This document shows, in pieces, positions 5,245 to 19,116 of a DNA stretch of 38,720 nt. Numbering within the stretch: the stretch's first letter is position 1; each line of letters begins with the position of its first letter. A program made the translations under genes and the position numbers. The notes beneath the pieces were generated by a model. It did not search any database. It was not told the DNA's origin and saw only the letters and a list, made by a program, of their open reading frames with translations. Origin of the DNA: Deltaproteobacteria bacterium (GTDB lineage Bacteria > Desulfobacterota > DSM-4660 > Desulfatiglandales > HGW-15); assembly GCA_016930835.1 (NCBI GenBank), contig JAFGGA010000165.1:1-38720 (forward strand). The letters are read 5' to 3'.

Positions 5245-6021
5245 ATGACATTTTATGAGACGTCCATTGTATTTGCTTTTTTGTTCGGCCTGATCTTTGG
5301 AAGTTTTTTGAATGTATGCATCTATCGTATACCTAGAAAAAAATCGCTCATTATGCCATCTTCCAGCTGTCCTCATTGTGGGGAGCGTATTCGATTTTAT
5401 GATAATATTCCACTTGTCAGTTATCTCATCCTATTCGGCAAATGTCGTCATTGCCGCACAAAGATTCCCGTCCGATATCCCATCGTGGAATTGATAACCG
5501 GTCTATTAAGCCTTTTCCTCTTTATCCGATACGATATCAGTATTTATTCGGTTTCCATTTTTTTGTTTTCCGCATCCTTGGTGGTCATCACATTCATTGA
5601 CCTTTATCATCAGATCATTCCTGATGTTATCTCGATCCCCGGTATGATCGTGGGGTTGGCCATTTCATTTTTACCGGGCCATGTCGGATGGCTTGACTCG
5701 ATCATCGGGATTCTCGCGGGCGGCGGCGGCCTTTATCTTGTCGCCGTTTTATTCGAGAAGTTAACCGGTAAGGAGGGCATGGGCGGTGGGGATGTCAAGC
5801 TCCTGGGCATGATCGGCGCATGGATGGGATGGAAGGCATTACCGTTTGTCATTCTTTTTTCATCGTTGCTGGGGACCATTGTGGGTGGTGGCGCCCTGTT
5901 GATATACCGCCGCGGTTTGCAGACTCGAATACCGTTTGGCCCGTTCTTGGCCTTGGGGGCCCTAGCCTATCTTTTCTTTGGTGATGAGTTGTTAGCATGG
6001 TATTACGGGATTCTTTCGTAA
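5245..6021 (+). CDS. pilD: Prepilin peptidase / N-methyltransferase (A24 family, PilD/GspO type)
   Basis: Inner-membrane aspartic protease that cleaves type IV prepilin or type II secretion pseudopilin leaders and methylates the new N-terminal residue. The N-terminal domain has the two zinc pairs Cys42/Cys45 and Cys67/Cys70, as in the bifunctional methylating form. The catalytic aspartates are Asp118 (in TFIDLYHQIIPD) and Asp182 (in the GMGGGDVKL version of the GxGD motif). At 258 residues with several hydrophobic helices it has a normal size. GAGGAG lies 8 bases before the ATG. No pilins or assembly ATPases are next to it; the following genes are a two-component pair. PilC is 16 kb downstream. 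Confidence 0.95.
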   Translation: MTFYETSIVFAFLFGLIFGSFLNVCIYRIPRKKSLIMPSSSCPHCGERIRFYDNIPLVSYLILFGKCRHCRTKIPVRYPIVELITGLLSLFLFIRYDISIYSVSIFLFSASLVVITFIDLYHQIIPDVISIPGMIVGLAISFLPGHVGWLDSIIGILAGGGGLYLVAVLFEKLTGKEGMGGGDVKLLGMIGAWMGWKALPFVILFSSLLGTIVGGGALLIYRRGLQTRIPFGPFLALGALAYLFFGDELLAWYYGILS

Positions 6022-6036
6022 AGGGGAATGAACCGG

Positions 6037-7593
6037 ATGATTTCATTTTCGGGTTTAAGGGCCAATATATTGCTGCAACTCATATTTTTGATTATCGCAG
6101 CCATGCTTTTGGTCAACGTCGCCATGATGAAATTTTCGGAAGGGGGTCTTATCCAGGCAAAGGTGTTAACGGGGCGGTTATTGGTCCAGAGCGTGGAACA
6201 ATATCTGCGCTGCTCCTTTTTCAATCAGGATCGATCCATCAGCGATTTGCGATCAGATCTCAAGGCGCCATACGAGTTGGGACGATTGCTGAACGTCAGT
6301 GAATATTCCGAACTCACGATCGTGGATCAAGGCGGGGGGGTTGTTTTTTCCATCGGCCCTGAAAACGGCAAGACATCCCGTGTTTCTCTTGCCAGGACGG
6401 CTATGGCAAACGGTGCCCGGGCCGTTCATTACAGCGGCAGCACATGGGGCGTTATTTGGTTGAACCATAAAGACGTCAGTCTGTCGGCCCCCCTGACACG
6501 AGAAGGCCGAAATGTTGGCGGAATGGTCATTGTTTCATCACTTCAGCCTGTTTATCAGAGCCTAAGACAGTCAGAGAAGGTGGTCCTTTTTTATATCCTC
6601 CTGGATACGATCATTCTGGCCATTGTGGGCATATATATCTTGTCACGGATTGTCATCAGGCCCATACAAAAACTCCTGGCCATGACAGTGGAATATAAAG
6701 ACGGGTATGTTATCCCGTCATTTGCGGAGCCCTCGAAAAATGAAATCGGCAACCTTTCCCGCTCTTTGAGTCGTATGCTGAAACGGCTGGACGAGAATAA
6801 GAAGGAATTACGGACCCACATCGCGTCGTTGGAAAAGGCCAATGAGGAACTAAAAAAGGCCCAGGATGAAATCATTCGGTCTGAAAAATTCGCATCAGTG
6901 GGGCGGCTTTCGGCCGGGATAGCCCATGAGATTGGGAATCCCATCGGCATCGTATTGGGCTATCTGGACTTAATCAAGAAAGGAAAAACCAGCGAGGAAG
7001 AAACGAGAGATTTTCTGGATCGGATGGAATCGGAGATCACACGGATTCATGTGATCATCAAGCAACTTCTGGATTTTTCGAGACCGTCCAGTGGAAAGCC
7101 TGAAAGGATCCACCTCCATGAATTGATTAAAGATGCCATTGATATGATGAAGCCTCAGCCCATGATGGAGGAAATCCAAATTTTTTTTCACCTGGAGGCG
7201 TCCAAGGATGAGATTTTCGTGGATCCAAACCATTTTCAGCAGGTATTTTTAAACATCATCCTGAATGCCGCTGATGCATTAGCTGGAAAAGACCCTTTCA
7301 ATGGCACCCGAAAGACGCTGAATATAACCAGTGTTGACGCGAATCCCTTTATTGAGGTACGGTTCCGGGATAACGGCGTGGGGATCTCCGGCGATGAGAT
7401 CGTGCATGTTTTTGATCCCTTTTATACGACCAAAGAACCCGGCAAAGGCACCGGTCTCGGGCTTTCCGTGTGTTATCGCATCATGGAGAGTTATGGCGGG
7501 ACCATAAGTGTGGAGAGTCAACAGGGAGAAGGAACAACGGTTATCATCAAAGTCCCGATTTATCAGAATGATGAAGAGAAGGAAAGGGAATGA
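6037..7593 (+). CDS. Membrane sensor histidine kinase (HAMP, HisKA, HATPase_c)
   Basis: Sensor half of a two-component system. Two membrane helices (about residues 9-30 and 183-208 from this start) bracket a periplasmic sensor of about 150 residues. These are followed by a HAMP-like segment, a coiled coil, the HisKA dimerisation helix with the phosphoacceptor His297 in GIAHEIGNP, and the ATPase domain with NAADAL, DNGVGIS, FDPFYTTK and GKGTGLGLS. I prefer the ATG at 6037: the AAGGGG at 6021-6026 is 10 bases away, but only one base from the in-frame ATG at 6028, which would add three residues. The stop overlaps the next gene (ATGA), so the cognate regulator is clear. The ligand is not readable from sequence. 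Confidence 0.93.
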   Translation: MISFSGLRANILLQLIFLIIAAMLLVNVAMMKFSEGGLIQAKVLTGRLLVQSVEQYLRCSFFNQDRSISDLRSDLKAPYELGRLLNVSEYSELTIVDQGGGVVFSIGPENGKTSRVSLARTAMANGARAVHYSGSTWGVIWLNHKDVSLSAPLTREGRNVGGMVIVSSLQPVYQSLRQSEKVVLFYILLDTIILAIVGIYILSRIVIRPIQKLLAMTVEYKDGYVIPSFAEPSKNEIGNLSRSLSRMLKRLDENKKELRTHIASLEKANEELKKAQDEIIRSEKFASVGRLSAGIAHEIGNPIGIVLGYLDLIKKGKTSEEETRDFLDRMESEITRIHVIIKQLLDFSRPSSGKPERIHLHELIKDAIDMMKPQPMMEEIQIFFHLEASKDEIFVDPNHFQQVFLNIILNAADALAGKDPFNGTRKTLNITSVDANPFIEVRFRDNGVGISGDEIVHVFDPFYTTKEPGKGTGLGLSVCYRIMESYGGTISVESQQGEGTTVIIKVPIYQNDEEKERE

Positions 7594-14028: not shown

Positions 14029-14822
14029 GAATAATTCCTATCTACTCGCTCCAGCATATTGATCAACATCCTGGCATTGTTGACCGCTTGGGCCCTGGCA
14101 TGATTATTAAAAAACACATACAGCTTATCCGTATCCTCCGCCAATTTACGAATTCTCGGTACCCATTCCCGGAGCTCTTCATTCGAATAGAGATAATCAT
14201 ACCTTTTTGTCGCATCCGTACCATACCAATTTTTTTTATTGCGCCCATGAAAGCGAACATATCCAATACGGGATGTATGAATGAACATGGGTGGAATAAG
14301 AGCTGGTAATGCCGGCTCATCCACGCATACAAATCCCGCGTTCAAATCCTTAAGAGATTTGAAGACCGACTCTCGGAGCCACTCCTTCTGACGAAACTCC
14401 ACAACCGCCGGGATTGGGGCCAATGCTTCAATTAAAGATTTCAGGTAAACCCTGTTGGCGGGCAGATAATGGAACCCCTGGGGGAACTGTAATAGAACGG
14501 CGCCCATTTTACCGGCTTCTATAAATGGAGAGATCCCTTTCATGAATAGCGGAAGGATCTCTGAAAGGGATCGATTCGATATCTCATGGGTCATTTGTCG
14601 GTTTGCTTTGATGACGAATTCCATCCTTTCCTCGGAATTGACCAGCATCTGCCTGGCTAGGCGGGCATCCGGAATCCGGTAATAGGAAAAATTTAATTCC
14701 AAGACCTGAAATTGGTGGGAGTAGAATGTGAGGTAATCCTTGGGGTCCATCTCTTTCGGGTAAAATACTTCATGCCAATCTTGATAAGAAAAACCAGAAG
14801 TTCCTATTAGAATATTCGTCAT
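14025..14822 (-). CDS. DUF72 (YecE-type) family protein
   Basis: 265 residues of the DUF72 family, a TIM-barrel-like group of unknown biochemical role. Family marks seen are [17 protein letters not shown] at the N-terminus, [34 protein letters not shown] and YVRFHGRN, and the C-terminal [16 protein letters not shown]. The gene is first in the operon with pcm and recG and overlaps pcm by 4 bases (ATGA). An AGGG lies about 10 bases before the ATG. Partnership with a repair methyltransferase and a helicase does not by itself reveal a function. Confidence 0.92.
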
Positions 14823-14885
14823 CGGTTTATGCCCTGGAAGGGGGATTTAGAACGTCGATTTGTTCGAGCGGTTTGACCTTTAAGA

Positions 14886-14915
14886 ATTATGCCCCAATAT
14901 GCACAGGATAAGCAA
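14886..14915 (-). promoter_or_regulatory. Possible promoter of the DUF72-pcm-recG operon
   Basis: Minus strand TTGCTT (14915-14910), 18-base spacer, CATAAT (14891-14886). The -10 box matches the consensus in 5 of 6 positions, and it lies 64 bases before the DUF72 start. The 248-base gap 14823-15070 lies between divergent genes; I see nothing else definite in it. Confidence 0.35.
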
Positions 14916-15070
14916 CCCATTTTCATTTTTTTCAGTGATCACCGTCCTTCAATATGTTAAAATATATTTATATCTTATGGTGTTGTTGTGTGATCTTAAA
15001 CAAAACAAGCGGATTGATGTCAAATGTAATGATAAAAATGAGAGATTATCCTTATTCAGGAGGTCTGGCC

Positions 15071-15634
15071 ATGACTCAAAACCCGGATCGTAAATTTTAT
15101 TTAAGAGAATTTAAGGCCATTAGCCATGCCATATCAACCTATGAAGACCTGAACCTGTTGATCAACCACATCGCGGAAGGCACTACCAGAACCTTTGACG
15201 CCAAAGGGTGTTGTATCATGCTCTATGATGACAGGGAAAACCAGCTCTTTACCGTGAGCAGTTATGGTGTCAGTGAAAAATATACGGATAAAGGTCCACT
15301 TTGGGTTGATAATAACGATTGCGCGTTTGTGCAAGGTGAACCCGTCTACATCGCGGATACCCAGAACGATCCTCGAATCCAATATCCGGCGGCCGCAAAA
15401 GAGGAAGGAATCGTTTCTATCCTGTCCATCCCCATTTCATATCGAGGGACAGCGGTTGGAACGATACGGATCTACCATGGTGAAGCAAAACATTTCAATG
15501 AGGAAGATATTGAAAGTCTAAAAATATTGGCCGAGCATCTCGGATTGGTAATAGAAATCAATGGGCTGAAAAATTTTCTGGATAAAGTGAAGATGGCCAT
15601 GGACAGCCTGCCCATGCGCATGCTTAAGGAATGA
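15071..15634 (+). CDS. GAF-domain protein
   Basis: 187-residue stand-alone GAF domain, a small-ligand or redox sensing fold (residues about 20-165). Marks include FDAKGCCIMLYDDRENQLFT, PVYIADTQNDPRIQYP and SILSIPISYRGTAVGTIRIY. There is no kinase or cyclase output on the same chain. The start at 15071 is set by AGGAGGT 6 bases upstream; in-frame upstream codons lack such a site. The two vicinal Cys in KGCC could be ligand or redox residues, which is inference. It leads a three-gene cluster with an atypical kinase-fold protein (10-base gap) and a universal stress protein. Confidence 0.88.
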   Translation: MTQNPDRKFYLREFKAISHAISTYEDLNLLINHIAEGTTRTFDAKGCCIMLYDDRENQLFTVSSYGVSEKYTDKGPLWVDNNDCAFVQGEPVYIADTQNDPRIQYPAAAKEEGIVSILSIPISYRGTAVGTIRIYHGEAKHFNEEDIESLKILAEHLGLVIEINGLKNFLDKVKMAMDSLPMRMLKE

Positions 15635-15644
15635 TGATCTTTCC

Positions 15645-16547
15645 ATGGAACAGCGTCAGTTTACAGACACATCCAATGTGTTTTCCATTGACTATGGAGA
15701 TGTCATTCTTGTAAACGGGAAACGATTTCAAGTGACCGGGCATGAGCGCGAACGTCGATTCGGGATTGAAGACCCGAAGTTCTGGGTTAAAAAAGTTCTT
15801 GATCTGGAAACGGGAGAGAAGAAGATCATTAAACTCTCTTTTTTTGAAACATTTGAACTTCTTCTGGGCGGCGTTAAGATAAATTGCTTTCGAAACCCGA
15901 AAAAAGAGGGCGATATCCTGAATACAGTGAGAGGTCACCCGCACTTTATGCAAGGTTGGTCCTGCCCGGATTCTCAAGGCAATATTTTGCGTATTTTGGA
16001 TATTGTACAGGGGCCTAATTTTTTGACCTATCTGGGTTCATTGGATATGAACCACGAAACATATTTCCAAAAGACGTTCCCGAACATATTGGAGCATCTG
16101 TTCAGAGCCTTTGATGCCATCCGCTTTCTTCATGTAAAAGGGTTCAAGCATGGCGATATTCGTAATGATCATATTATTGTGGAGCAGGGAACGGGAAATT
16201 ATGTCTGGATCGATTTTGATTATGATTTTATCACGAATGAGAACCCGTACGGCCTGGATATTATCGGTCTGGGGAATATTCTGCTCTATGCCGCCGGTAA
16301 AGGGTTTCATACTAAACGGGATATCGATGGAGAGGTCACTTTATATGGGGATTTACGGGAACGGATCAACCCGGGTGATTTCTCGATAATCAATAGAAGA
16401 CGCTTCGTCAATCTAAAAAAATTATATCCATATATCCCCGACTCTTTGAATGATATGCTCATCCATTTTTCAATGGGGACGGAGGTGTATTATGAATCTG
16501 TTCAAGAGATCATTGATGATTTGAATAGATACATGGATAGGTATTAA
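15645..16547 (+). CDS. Atypical protein-kinase-fold protein
   Basis: 300 residues with a divergent Ser/Thr kinase-like or APH-like fold. The ATP-anchoring Lys is probably Lys63 (KIIKLSF), and Glu88 may be its helix-C partner. The catalytic loop reads KHGDIRNDHIIV with Asp171 kept, but the Mg-binding Asn is replaced by His176. The DFG motif is DFD (Asp190-Phe-Asp192). No Gly-rich loop is plain near residues 30-45. Catalysis may be retained with altered metal binding, or the protein may be a pseudokinase; the sequence does not decide. The cluster with GAF and Usp genes suggests a stress-signalling role. The ribosome-binding site is weak (AAGGA about 14 bases upstream), so coupling to the GAF gene is likely. 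Confidence 0.8.
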   Translation: MEQRQFTDTSNVFSIDYGDVILVNGKRFQVTGHERERRFGIEDPKFWVKKVLDLETGEKKIIKLSFFETFELLLGGVKINCFRNPKKEGDILNTVRGHPHFMQGWSCPDSQGNILRILDIVQGPNFLTYLGSLDMNHETYFQKTFPNILEHLFRAFDAIRFLHVKGFKHGDIRNDHIIVEQGTGNYVWIDFDYDFITNENPYGLDIIGLGNILLYAAGKGFHTKRDIDGEVTLYGDLRERINPGDFSIINRRRFVNLKKLYPYIPDSLNDMLIHFSMGTEVYYESVQEIIDDLNRYMDRY

Positions 16548-16561
16548 GGAAGGAGGATGCT

Positions 16562-17017
16562 TTGGAAAAGCAAAAACGTTCCATCCTTGTGGCGTTAAAT
16601 GATTCCGTAAGTTCCAGAGCTGTGGTGGATTTTCTCATCGATCTAATACCATGCCCGGAGGATTGTTTCATCTATTTGTTACATTTTTTCAGGAAGCCAT
16701 CGGCCAGTGAAGAACTTATGGGTAAAAAATTTACTTCAGGGCTGTCTTCCAGGATGAAGATGGTTTTGGAAAAGGCCAAAGAAAAATTAGTGGAAAAGGG
16801 AATTGATCCCATGAATATCGAGACGGAGCTGGTGAGCCAACCCTATCCAACCATAGCGGACGGCATTATTGATCAGGTCAAGAGACGTAATGCAAATCTG
16901 GTGGTGATCGGTCGAAAAAAGATGTCGAAAGCCGAGGAGTTCGTCATGGGGGATATCAGCATAAAGCTTATCAGGTCCTTGGATGGAGTGTCCGTATTGG
17001 TTGTGAAGTCAAAATGA
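16562..17017 (+). CDS. Universal stress protein (UspA family)
   Basis: 151-residue single Usp domain. N-terminal RSILVALNDSVSSRAVVDFL and C-terminal NLVVIGRKKMSKAEEFVMGDISIKLIRS...SVLVVK fit the ATP-binding Usp pattern G-2x-G-9x-G(S/T) only loosely: the first Gly is present, but GRKKM replaces GSRG, so nucleotide binding is uncertain. The start is a TTG at 16562 preceded by AAGGAGG at the right distance; an ATG at 16557 is in a frame that closes after a few codons. It is the last gene of the GAF/kinase-fold/Usp cluster and converges on transketolase. Confidence 0.88.
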   Translation: MEKQKRSILVALNDSVSSRAVVDFLIDLIPCPEDCFIYLLHFFRKPSASEELMGKKFTSGLSSRMKMVLEKAKEKLVEKGIDPMNIETELVSQPYPTIADGIIDQVKRRNANLVVIGRKKMSKAEEFVMGDISIKLIRSLDGVSVLVVKSK

Positions 17018-17088
17018 AAATTTTCGCCTGCCTTGATATTAGACAAAATCGAGTATTTTCAAAGATCCCAAGGTGATCATATCTGGCC

Positions 17089-19116
17089 TTACATTCGCTT
17101 TAGAAGGGCCGTCGCCTCCTGAACAATCCGTTCGGACATAAAACCAAACTCCTTCAAGACCCTCGATCCCGGCGCGGATGCGCCGAAATGGTTGATGCCC
17201 ATCATGAATCCTCGATCACCGATATAACGTTCCCATCCCATGGAAATACCGGCTTCCACGGCAATACGGGCGGTCACCTCCTCGGGGAGGACCTGGCTTT
17301 TATATTCCTGGGGTGTTTCTTCAAAAAGCTCCCAGCTCGGCATATTTACAACCCTTGCGGAGATACCTTGATCATGAAGGATTTTAGCGGCTTGTAACGT
17401 TATATGGACCTCCGAGCCTGTCGCTATCAGGATGATATCCGGTTTGGTTTGAGGTTCAACCAGGATGTAGGCCCCGCTGGCTAGACCTTCGGCGGGAGGG
17501 TATTGCGAGCGGTCCAATATGGGAAGTTTCTGGCGGCTTAATATAAGGGCCACGGGTTTTTCCATGATGGATATGGCTTTCCGCCAAGCCACCACGGTCT
17601 CCGTGGCATCGGCGGGTCGAATAACCACAAGATCCGGTATGGCCCGTAAACATGCTAAATGTTCAATGGGTTGATGGGTGGGGCCATCTTCACCGACTGC
17701 AATGCTGTCATGAGTAAAGACATAAATAACGGGCAATTTCATTAATCCGGCCAAACGTATGGCGGGTCTCATGTAATCGGCAAACACCAGGAAAGTGCCG
17801 CCATAGGGAATCACCCCTTTATGCAAGGCCATTCCGGAAAGGATTCCTGCCATGGCATGCTCCCGAACGCCAAATCGGATGTTTCTCCCGTCGTATTGTC
17901 CCTTTTGGAAATCATGGGATGATGTGATAATGGTCTTATTGGATGGAGCGAGATCGGCCGATCCGCCCATCAAATTCGTTAATTTCTCCGCAATATTGTT
18001 TAACACCTTACCGGAGGCCGCACGGGTTGCCATAGGACCGTCCGATTGAGAGAAATGAGGTAGATCCAAATCCCATCCCTTTTTTAAGATATGATTGATT
18101 GAATCATTCAATTGCTCTGCAAGTCCTGGGTATTGTTTCTGGTAAGTCTTGAACCTTTCCTGCCACAATGATTCCGCTTCTTTTCCTTTCTCTATGCAAC
18201 ATCGAAATATTTTTAATGCCTGCTCCGGAATGAGAAAGGAGACATCCTCCGGCCAGCCCAAATTTTTTTTAGTCAGACGGATTTCATCTTCCCCGAGCGG
18301 TTCTCCATGGGCGGAAGCGGAATCCTGTTTATTCGGACTCCCATAGGCGATGTGGGTTTTGAGAAGGATGAGCGAAGGTCGATCCGTTTCGTTTCGGGCC
18401 TCTTGAATGGCCTGATAAATAGCGGTCCTGTCGTTTCCATCATTCACGTTTTGTACATGCCAATGATAGGCGCGAAACCTTTGCGCCACATCCTCCGTAA
18501 AGGCAATATCCGTCTTACCCTCAATGGTGATCTGATTGTCATCATAGATACAGATTAGTTTTGATAGACCTAGATGTCCCGCAAGGGAAGCGGCCTCGGA
18601 TGTCACACCCTCCATAAAATCTCCGTCACCGCACATGACATAGGTATAATGGTCTATGATCTCATGGCCTGGTTGATTAAAAACAGCTGCCAGATGTCGT
18701 TCAGCCAGCGCCATGCCCACTGCGTTGGTAAAACCCTGTCCAAGCGGGCCAGTCGTGGTTTCAACACCCGGTGTGCATCCGAATTCGGGGTGGCCGGGGG
18801 TGCAACTGCCCCATTGCCGGAAATTTTTGATTTCATCCAGAGCCAAATCATAACCGGTGAGGTGAAGAAGACTATATAGAAGCATGGACGCGTGACCACC
18901 AGAGAGGATAAAACGGTCCCGATCATACCAATCAGGATTTTTGGGGTTGTGTTTTAAAAATTTCGTCCACAACACAAAGGCCGCTGCAGCAAGTCCCATG
19001 GGCGCGCCTGGATGACCTGAATTCGCCTTTTGTACCGCATCCATTGAGAGGATACGGATTGTATTGATACATAATTCTTCATTATTCAGTGGGTTTTCAG
19101 GCTTCTCTTTTTGCAT
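17089..19116 (-). CDS. tkt: Transketolase
   Basis: Thiamine-diphosphate enzyme of the non-oxidative pentose phosphate pathway; moves two-carbon ketol units between sugar phosphates. 675 residues, normal. N-terminal [12 protein letters not shown], the TPP/Mg motif GDGDFMEG at 163-170, the donor-site [10 protein letters not shown], the catalytic region [10 protein letters not shown], and C-terminal DRFGASAPG-like segment ([10 protein letters not shown]) are all present. AAAGGAG lies 8 bases before the ATG. It is divergent from the sodium-pump beta gene, with a possible promoter at 19173-19202. Confidence 0.97.

Follow-up and report, generated by a model that had tools for sequence, protein, structure and literature searches.

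A predicted atypical kinase and its dedicated universal stress protein in sulfate-reducer-type bacteria

The gene for an atypical protein-kinase-like protein, here called KIN, and the gene for a universal stress protein (Usp) form the core of a small cluster to which a GAF-domain gene is added in one clade. These genes suggest a GAF-KIN-Usp signalling module of sulfate-reducer-type bacteria. Our preferred reading, to which we give a probability of about 0.5, is that KIN is an active atypical kinase under the control of its dedicated Usp, which would sense nucleotide or, in the clade of the window, receive its signal from the GAF protein. The model builds directly on how the genes are ordered, which subfamilies they belong to and how they co-occur, and on motif loss and fold.

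Results

Three adjacent genes in the window

The window, i.e., the whole stretch of DNA that was analysed, is one complete contig of 38,720 bases from a 4.7-Mb genome in 224 contigs. The genes are:

15071..15634, + strand: stand-alone GAF-domain protein of 187 aa, putative small-molecule input (Pfam GAF_2, predicted model, likeness to 3ci6)
15645..16547, + strand: KIN, atypical protein-kinase-like protein of 300 aa (kinase-fold model, invariant catalytic set)
16562..17017, + strand: dedicated Usp of 151 aa with the signature SKAEEF and a degenerate ATP motif (Pfam Usp, subfamily, co-occurrence with KIN)

The first-pass annotation had placed three genes in the same direction with gaps of 10 and 14 bases, and both strand and positions were confirmed. 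The GAF gene starts with an ATG preceded by AGGAGG (a longer mechanical reading frame begins at 14954), KIN with an ATG, and the Usp gene with a TTG preceded by AAGGAGG. Two genes of the opposite (−) strand, for a DUF72 protein and a transketolase, flank the trio, and KIN has one match in its own genome. Scans of 14700-17200 gave no excess over shuffled sequences of promoter-like sites (3 against 6.3) or terminator-like sites (2 against 2.1).

KIN has a predicted kinase fold and a catalytic loop of its own

The AlphaFold model of KIN, made with an alignment of 51 relatives, had a pLDDT of 93.2 and a pTM of 0.90, and only residues 39-41 fell below a pLDDT of 50. The structural matches listed, which are the best 50 of the Foldseek top 1000, are protein kinases, and the absence of WaaP, Rio and RNase L from them is no evidence; the best match listed was PknB of M. 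tuberculosis (1o6y; Z 17.9, rmsd 4.1, 230 residues aligned). The kinase fold expected for the middle protein is thus borne out by structure prediction, and we are confident that the modelled KIN has the fold of the protein-kinase-like (PKL) superfamily. Among PDB profile matches, MSK1 came first (5.7e-8) and RNase L second (3.6e-7). The window KIN matched Pfam Pkinase at 0.0019 with 18.1 bits, below the cut-off of 31.7; at E<=1 Pkinase matched 44 of the 51 family members (best 2e-8), and APH matched 13 of them weakly (best 0.0033).

The motifs found in KIN are Lys63, Glu88, HGDIRNDH at 169-176, DFD at 190-192 and a short activation segment. Residues were counted in 143 distinct sequences, obtained from 149 loci by dropping three short ones and merging duplicates. 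Glu88, Asp171, Asp175, His176, Trp188 and Asp190-Phe191-Asp192 were invariant, and Lys63 was present in 142, the exception being a gap in L150. The catalytic loop follows the signature HGD-[IVL]-R-x-D-H. Because His176 and DFD did not vary in any of the 143 sequences, the residues named in the first-pass annotation, which also included catalytic Asp171 and Asp190, are correct and are fixed features of the family. Judged from sequence, His176 and DFD leave Mg coordination by KIN uncertain.

In the available text of PMC1821047, Kannan et al. give ten key residues of PKL kinases (PKA numbers G52, K72, E91, P104, H158, H164, D166, N171, D184 and D220), every one of which except one is dispensable in some family. 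With motifs placed by hand and the P104 equivalent left out, the corresponding KIN residues were G40 (142 of 143), K63 (142), E88 (143), H163 (142), H169 (143), D171 (143), D190 (143) and D205 (141), and the N171 position was His in all 143. Kannan et al. regard the stretch from HxD to the Asn place as a discriminative family signature (PMC1821047, in part); in KIN it reads [IVL]-R-x-D.

As had been proposed, KIN stands outside the usual Hanks type (ePK/PknB). Its loop is HGD with His176 in 143/143 sequences where Hanks-type kinases have HRD...N, the window KIN stays below the Pkinase cut-off, and the extended activation loop is missing, D190 and D205 being 15 residues apart in 141/143 sequences and 11 in 2/143. 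KIN shares its fold with the PknB-type bacterial Ser/Thr kinases but differs from them in having HGD for HRD, His for Asn and a short activation segment.

The His at the Asn place is not unique to KIN. WaaP of E. coli K-12 offers a precedent: in its loop (HRDCYICH), as in that of KIN (HGDIRNDH), His replaces the Mg-binding Asn at equal spacing. The pairing by hhalign puts both loops in register, yet its probability is only 0.9%, and WaaP has DLH where KIN has DFD. The Pfam Kdo profile gave no match to the window KIN at E<=10 and matched 13/51 family members at E<=1 (best 0.018); with matches this weak, KIN as a Kdo/WaaP member is unsupported. The kinase-homology domain of RNase L resembles KIN in DFD, the short activation segment and the profile match, but its loop reads HQDLQPQN against HGDxRxDH, and KIN is a single 300-aa domain. 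RNase L is a pseudokinase, and pseudokinases often fail to keep the Lys/Glu/Asp/Asp catalytic set. A defence role was also considered and rejected: PADLOC gave only weak kinase-type matches for KIN (best 0.00036) and none at 0.01 for the GAF protein and the Usp.

KIN and Usp are neighbours across the phylum

In an even sample of the phylum (395 genomes), 69 genomes had KIN. One locus was examined in each of 68 of them; the remaining genome, G081, carries a KIN fragment. A Usp gene lay on the same strand within 700 bases of KIN in 61/68 loci, and so the middle gene does not mostly stand alone; as the window's own 4.7-Mb genome has only 14 Usp-domain matches, this adjacency is above chance. The order was KIN-Usp in 46 of the 61 loci, GAF-KIN-Usp in 11 and Usp-KIN in 4. 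The three-gene order looked for in other genomes thus stands as a conserved unit, but its core is the KIN-Usp pair, and the GAF gene is an add-on in one clade only. Outside the 61, the Usp gene was the next gene upstream of KIN in G144 (L097), and in G157 KIN was cut by a contig end, with the Usp adjoining its other piece. In G345 a lone KIN and a GAF-Usp pair with a GD-type Usp occupied separate contigs, and G057 had KIN and Usp on different contigs; in G018, G117 and G152 the dedicated Usp was not found at 1e-30. In a wider set of loci, which leans to close relatives and in which at least three genomes were entered twice with identical KINs, an adjacent Usp was seen in 131/149. On the KIN tree (146 rows, built by a quick method with SH-aLRT as its sole support measure), the three orders imply at least two order changes.

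Across the 395 genomes, 65 had both KIN and the dedicated Usp, 4 had KIN only (G018, G081, G117 and G152), 1 had the Usp only (G093, 62% complete) and 325 had neither. The Fisher p value for this co-occurrence is 2e-68, uncorrected for ancestry, and it overstates independence because both genes have descended vertically through large parts of the tree. In a 17-genome family sample, 6 genomes had full KIN and 6 had the Usp subfamily (E<=4.8e-43), with 5 genomes in both groups. Here the sole Usp next to KIN in G001 was a divergent one (1.2e-27), G004 (64% complete) had the Usp subfamily without KIN, and G010 had a KIN fragment of 47 residues.

No in-frame fusion of KIN to Usp or GAF was present among 154 sequences scanned, and the profiles used found no second domain in the 683-aa frame of L097 or the 661-aa frame of L218.

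Several loci showed further arrangements. L019 has the order GAF-KIN-Usp-KIN, the second KIN (5998-6903) being divergent (5e-119). A ketopantoate-reductase-type gene (ApbA/PanE, Pfam) lies upstream of Usp-KIN at L053:4331-5290, and L084 looks alike by eye. In Solidesulfovibrio alcoholivorans, 275143-288000 (L081) and 381321-394178 (L086) of NZ_JNJA01000003.1 are 100% identical stretches of 12858 bases, each with KIN-Usp, in opposite orientation on one scaffold; they reflect either a recent duplication with inversion or an artefact of assembly.

KIN-adjacent Usps are a subfamily of their own

The window Usp matched Pfam Usp at 1.8e-11 (45.2 bits, cut-off 24). S/T-K/R-x-x-E-F is present in 123 of 129 distinct KIN-adjacent Usps, with S/T-K-x-E-E-F as the subfamily form; in this set position 122 is Ser/Thr in 127, E126 is present in 128 and F127 in 127. 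The signature was absent from the stretches shown of the Usp paralogs in the window's own genome, the loop of L160 left out. A profile built from 44 KIN-adjacent Usps split the 395 genomes, 66 matching at E<=1.8e-41 and the next best at 1.5e-37, and the matches beyond this gap do not track KIN. KIN-adjacent Usps thus make up a distinct subfamily, and it is found almost exclusively together with KIN. Usps in general were found in 13/14 control genomes and, to our knowledge, the molecular-level function of most Usps is unclear.

Loss of the ATP motif in GAF-linked Usps

The motif of ATP-binding Usps is G-2x-G-9x-G(S/T) (PMC8401546, in its available part). The window Usp departs from it, with Lys120 for the second Gly and Asp131 for Ser/Thr. 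The same loss, i.e., a missing second Gly and Asp for Ser/Thr, occurred in 44/44 distinct Usps beside GAF and KIN, and both positions were kept in 78/85 distinct Usps with no detected GAF. The exceptions among the 85 were L032 and L038, which are contig starts inside the GAF clade; L006, where a motif-less Usp comes after what look to be membrane helices; and L055, L124, L125 and L139, which have lost the second Gly and kept Ser, with no GAF. GAF-linked Usps away from KIN (G345 and G382) are also of the GD type. In G057 and G093 the Usp, which stands alone and reads ARRKTSRSEEFLFGS, has lost the Gly residues with no GAF neighbour. Since the GAF loci group together on the tree, the 44 losses count as one or few events. 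In these sequences, GAF linkage and loss of the ATP motif go together, with no simple rule (G057, G093, L055, L124, L125 and L139).

At L200:5637-6455 of G001, a Usp with a lost ATP motif follows an N-terminal part that by eye resembles several membrane helices; Pfam names the Usp only. Desulfatitalea alkaliphila M08but carries, besides its GAF-KIN-Usp locus (L048), a second KIN-Usp locus (L220), the Usp of which still has GS at the end of its ATP motif.

The GAF protein belongs to one clade of KIN loci

The GAF protein matched Pfam GAF_2 at 1.9e-17 (64.2 bits, cut-off 28.6), and its model had a pLDDT of 87.0. It resembled the GAF domain of PtsP (3ci6) with Z 20.6 over 152 residues and a profile match of 2.8e-14, and it matched NCBIfam PtsP at 3.2e-10. 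The GAF domains of PtsP (EI-Ntr) and NifA were its best-scoring family and structure matches; unlike them, the window GAF is a stand-alone protein with a conserved C-terminal LPxRML tail. PtsP and NifA GAF domains sense nitrogen- or carbon-status metabolites, and from the likeness to PtsP such metabolites are therefore the first candidate ligands. NreA-like stand-alone GAF regulators are presumably comparable, as GAF-only proteins encoded with a kinase; the target of NreA is a histidine kinase, unlike KIN.

With a profile built from 34 GAF proteins, 13/395 genomes matched at E<=2.8e-75 and the next at 3.0e-48 (at 1e-30, 114 genomes match, mostly with other GAF proteins). All 13 carry KIN and the dedicated Usp. 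On the KIN tree a single group of 56 rows (support 100) took in the GAF loci; 45 of its rows had GAF, 9 had no neighbour and 2 had the Usp only, the contig starting there. G382 has both a GAF-Usp pair and, separately, a KIN-Usp pair. A different kind of GAF-Usp pair, with no SKxEEF and no KIN in the stretch read, occurs at L213:2140-3309 and L214:2114-3046 (genomes G379 and G021), which suggests that stand-alone GAF and Usp form a wider pairing.

KIN occurs without the dedicated Usp

Seven genomes had KIN without the dedicated Usp: G018 (66% complete), G117, G152 (82% complete), G409, G431, G536 and G551. In G409 the best Usp-subfamily match reached only 1.7e-21. In the G406 group, 12/149 genomes matched KIN at 1e-5; apart from G406 itself, three are true KINs (G431, G536 and G551; 1.4e-88 to 7.6e-102) and the other eight matches are weak (1.4e-8 to 9.3e-6). 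The three keep HGDIRxDH and DFD, and no dedicated Usp was found within about 1.5 kb of KIN or elsewhere at 1e-15. KIN in G409, G431, G536 and G551 shows that KIN has no general need of this Usp. By branch lengths, the G406 KIN (L080) hardly differs from the KINs of two deltaproteobacterial bins, L082 and L085, and its contig may therefore be misplaced. L023, L037 and L080, filed as Omnitrophota, SAR324 and Planctomycetota, have KINs that group with deltaproteobacterial ones and may be misbinned.

No shared neighbour gene was seen among the stand-alone KINs inspected. At L075 and L077 the Usp-less KIN lies beside genes that by eye resemble sulfate adenylyltransferase.

Discussion

We propose that KIN is an active, atypical PKL member that has a distinctive catalytic loop and hardly any activation segment, and that the Usp would bind KIN as a dedicated partner and set its activity. 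In most lineages, a Usp that keeps the ATP motif would report the nucleotide state on its own; for the motif-less Usp of the window's clade, the GAF protein, sensing a small molecule, would provide the input instead. The signal would run from GAF to Usp to KIN, with a ligand and a substrate equally conjectural. The occurrence of GAF is nested in that of the Usp and that of the Usp in that of KIN, the pattern of inputs added to an effector, so that the GAF ligand or the Usp nucleotide would set KIN activity. Such nesting, as read from the genomes, agrees with GAF and Usp as inputs of KIN better than the Usp as its sole target. Stress as the stimulus, part of the original proposal, takes its basis from the name of the Usp family. 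A broader formulation, which we put forward tentatively and with somewhat less than even odds, is that KIN is a new atypical kinase family whose dedicated Usp has exchangeable inputs: an ATP-sensing Usp, a GAF-gated Usp that does not bind ATP and, in another genome, a membrane-fused Usp.

KIN might instead phosphorylate a small molecule rather than a protein, the Usp and GAF protein tuning a metabolic step. An HGD loop and a missing activation segment are usual for small-molecule kinases of the PKL superfamily, and the extended loop is a feature of the ePK, pknB and HRK families (PMC1821047, in its available part). The weak APH matches point the same way, but more members match Pkinase, the best folds among the matches listed are protein kinases, and the stand-alone KINs inspected have no biosynthetic neighbour in common; we therefore consider this reading unlikely. 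We are slightly more doubtful that KIN is a nucleotide-binding pseudokinase like RNase L, in which ATP or ADP would set the shape while Usp and GAF serve as a scaffold and no phosphate is transferred. DFD with the 15-residue spacing to D205, the RNase L profile match and His at the place of the Mg-binding Asn would suit such a protein. On the other hand, Lys63, Glu88, Asp171 and Asp190 are fixed in distinct relatives bar the one gap at Lys63, WaaP, an annotated heptose kinase, carries the same His, and loops of the KIN type recur in another genome group.

The tight co-occurrence and the Ser/Thr at Usp position 122 would also be expected if the Usp were the phosphorylation target and output of KIN, with the GAF protein as upstream sensor. 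Position 122 is also Ser in the paralogs of the window's own genome and is thus not specific, and KIN is present in genomes lacking this Usp, which makes the Usp as target rather improbable. A neighbourhood kept by inheritance alone, with no joint function, would agree with a cluster that tracks KIN clades and with a co-occurrence test uncorrected for ancestry, but is very improbable given that adjacency outlasts order changes, that partners stay together after the operon is split (G345 and G057) and that the next Usp matches are set off by an E-value gap and do not follow KIN.

In our literature search we found no report of a GAF-KIN-Usp module. The part of PMC8401546 available on Desulfovibrionaceae Usps shows no adjacent kinase, PMC10102598 and PMC5109826 deal in their available parts with other Usps, and in that of PMC5193443 the Usps Dde_3712 and Dde_3713 adjoin the hypothetical protein Dde_3711. 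Fusions of Usp domains with Ser/Thr kinases are already in print for M. loti, B. japonicum and N. europaea, as are plant Usp kinases (PMC1262709, in part). Like KIN-Usp, these join a kinase fold and a Usp in one signalling unit; as far as that text goes, they are fusions with Ser/Thr kinases, whereas KIN-Usp consists of separate genes with an atypical kinase family, and the KIN-Usp module itself is unreported in the literature found. The KINtaro catalogue has 72 kinase-like families in the available text of PMC10870513, and KIN may already be one of them.

A Usp subfamily tied to one kinase family would come with a definite partner and an output that can be tested, and cultured hosts such as Desulfatitalea alkaliphila M08but (L048) and Solidesulfovibrio alcoholivorans DSM 5433 (L081) are among the loci. 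The match between GAF linkage and ATP-motif loss predicts that the sensing job has moved from the Usp to the GAF protein. If the proposed reading is true, one branch of the Usp family would gain a defined molecular job.
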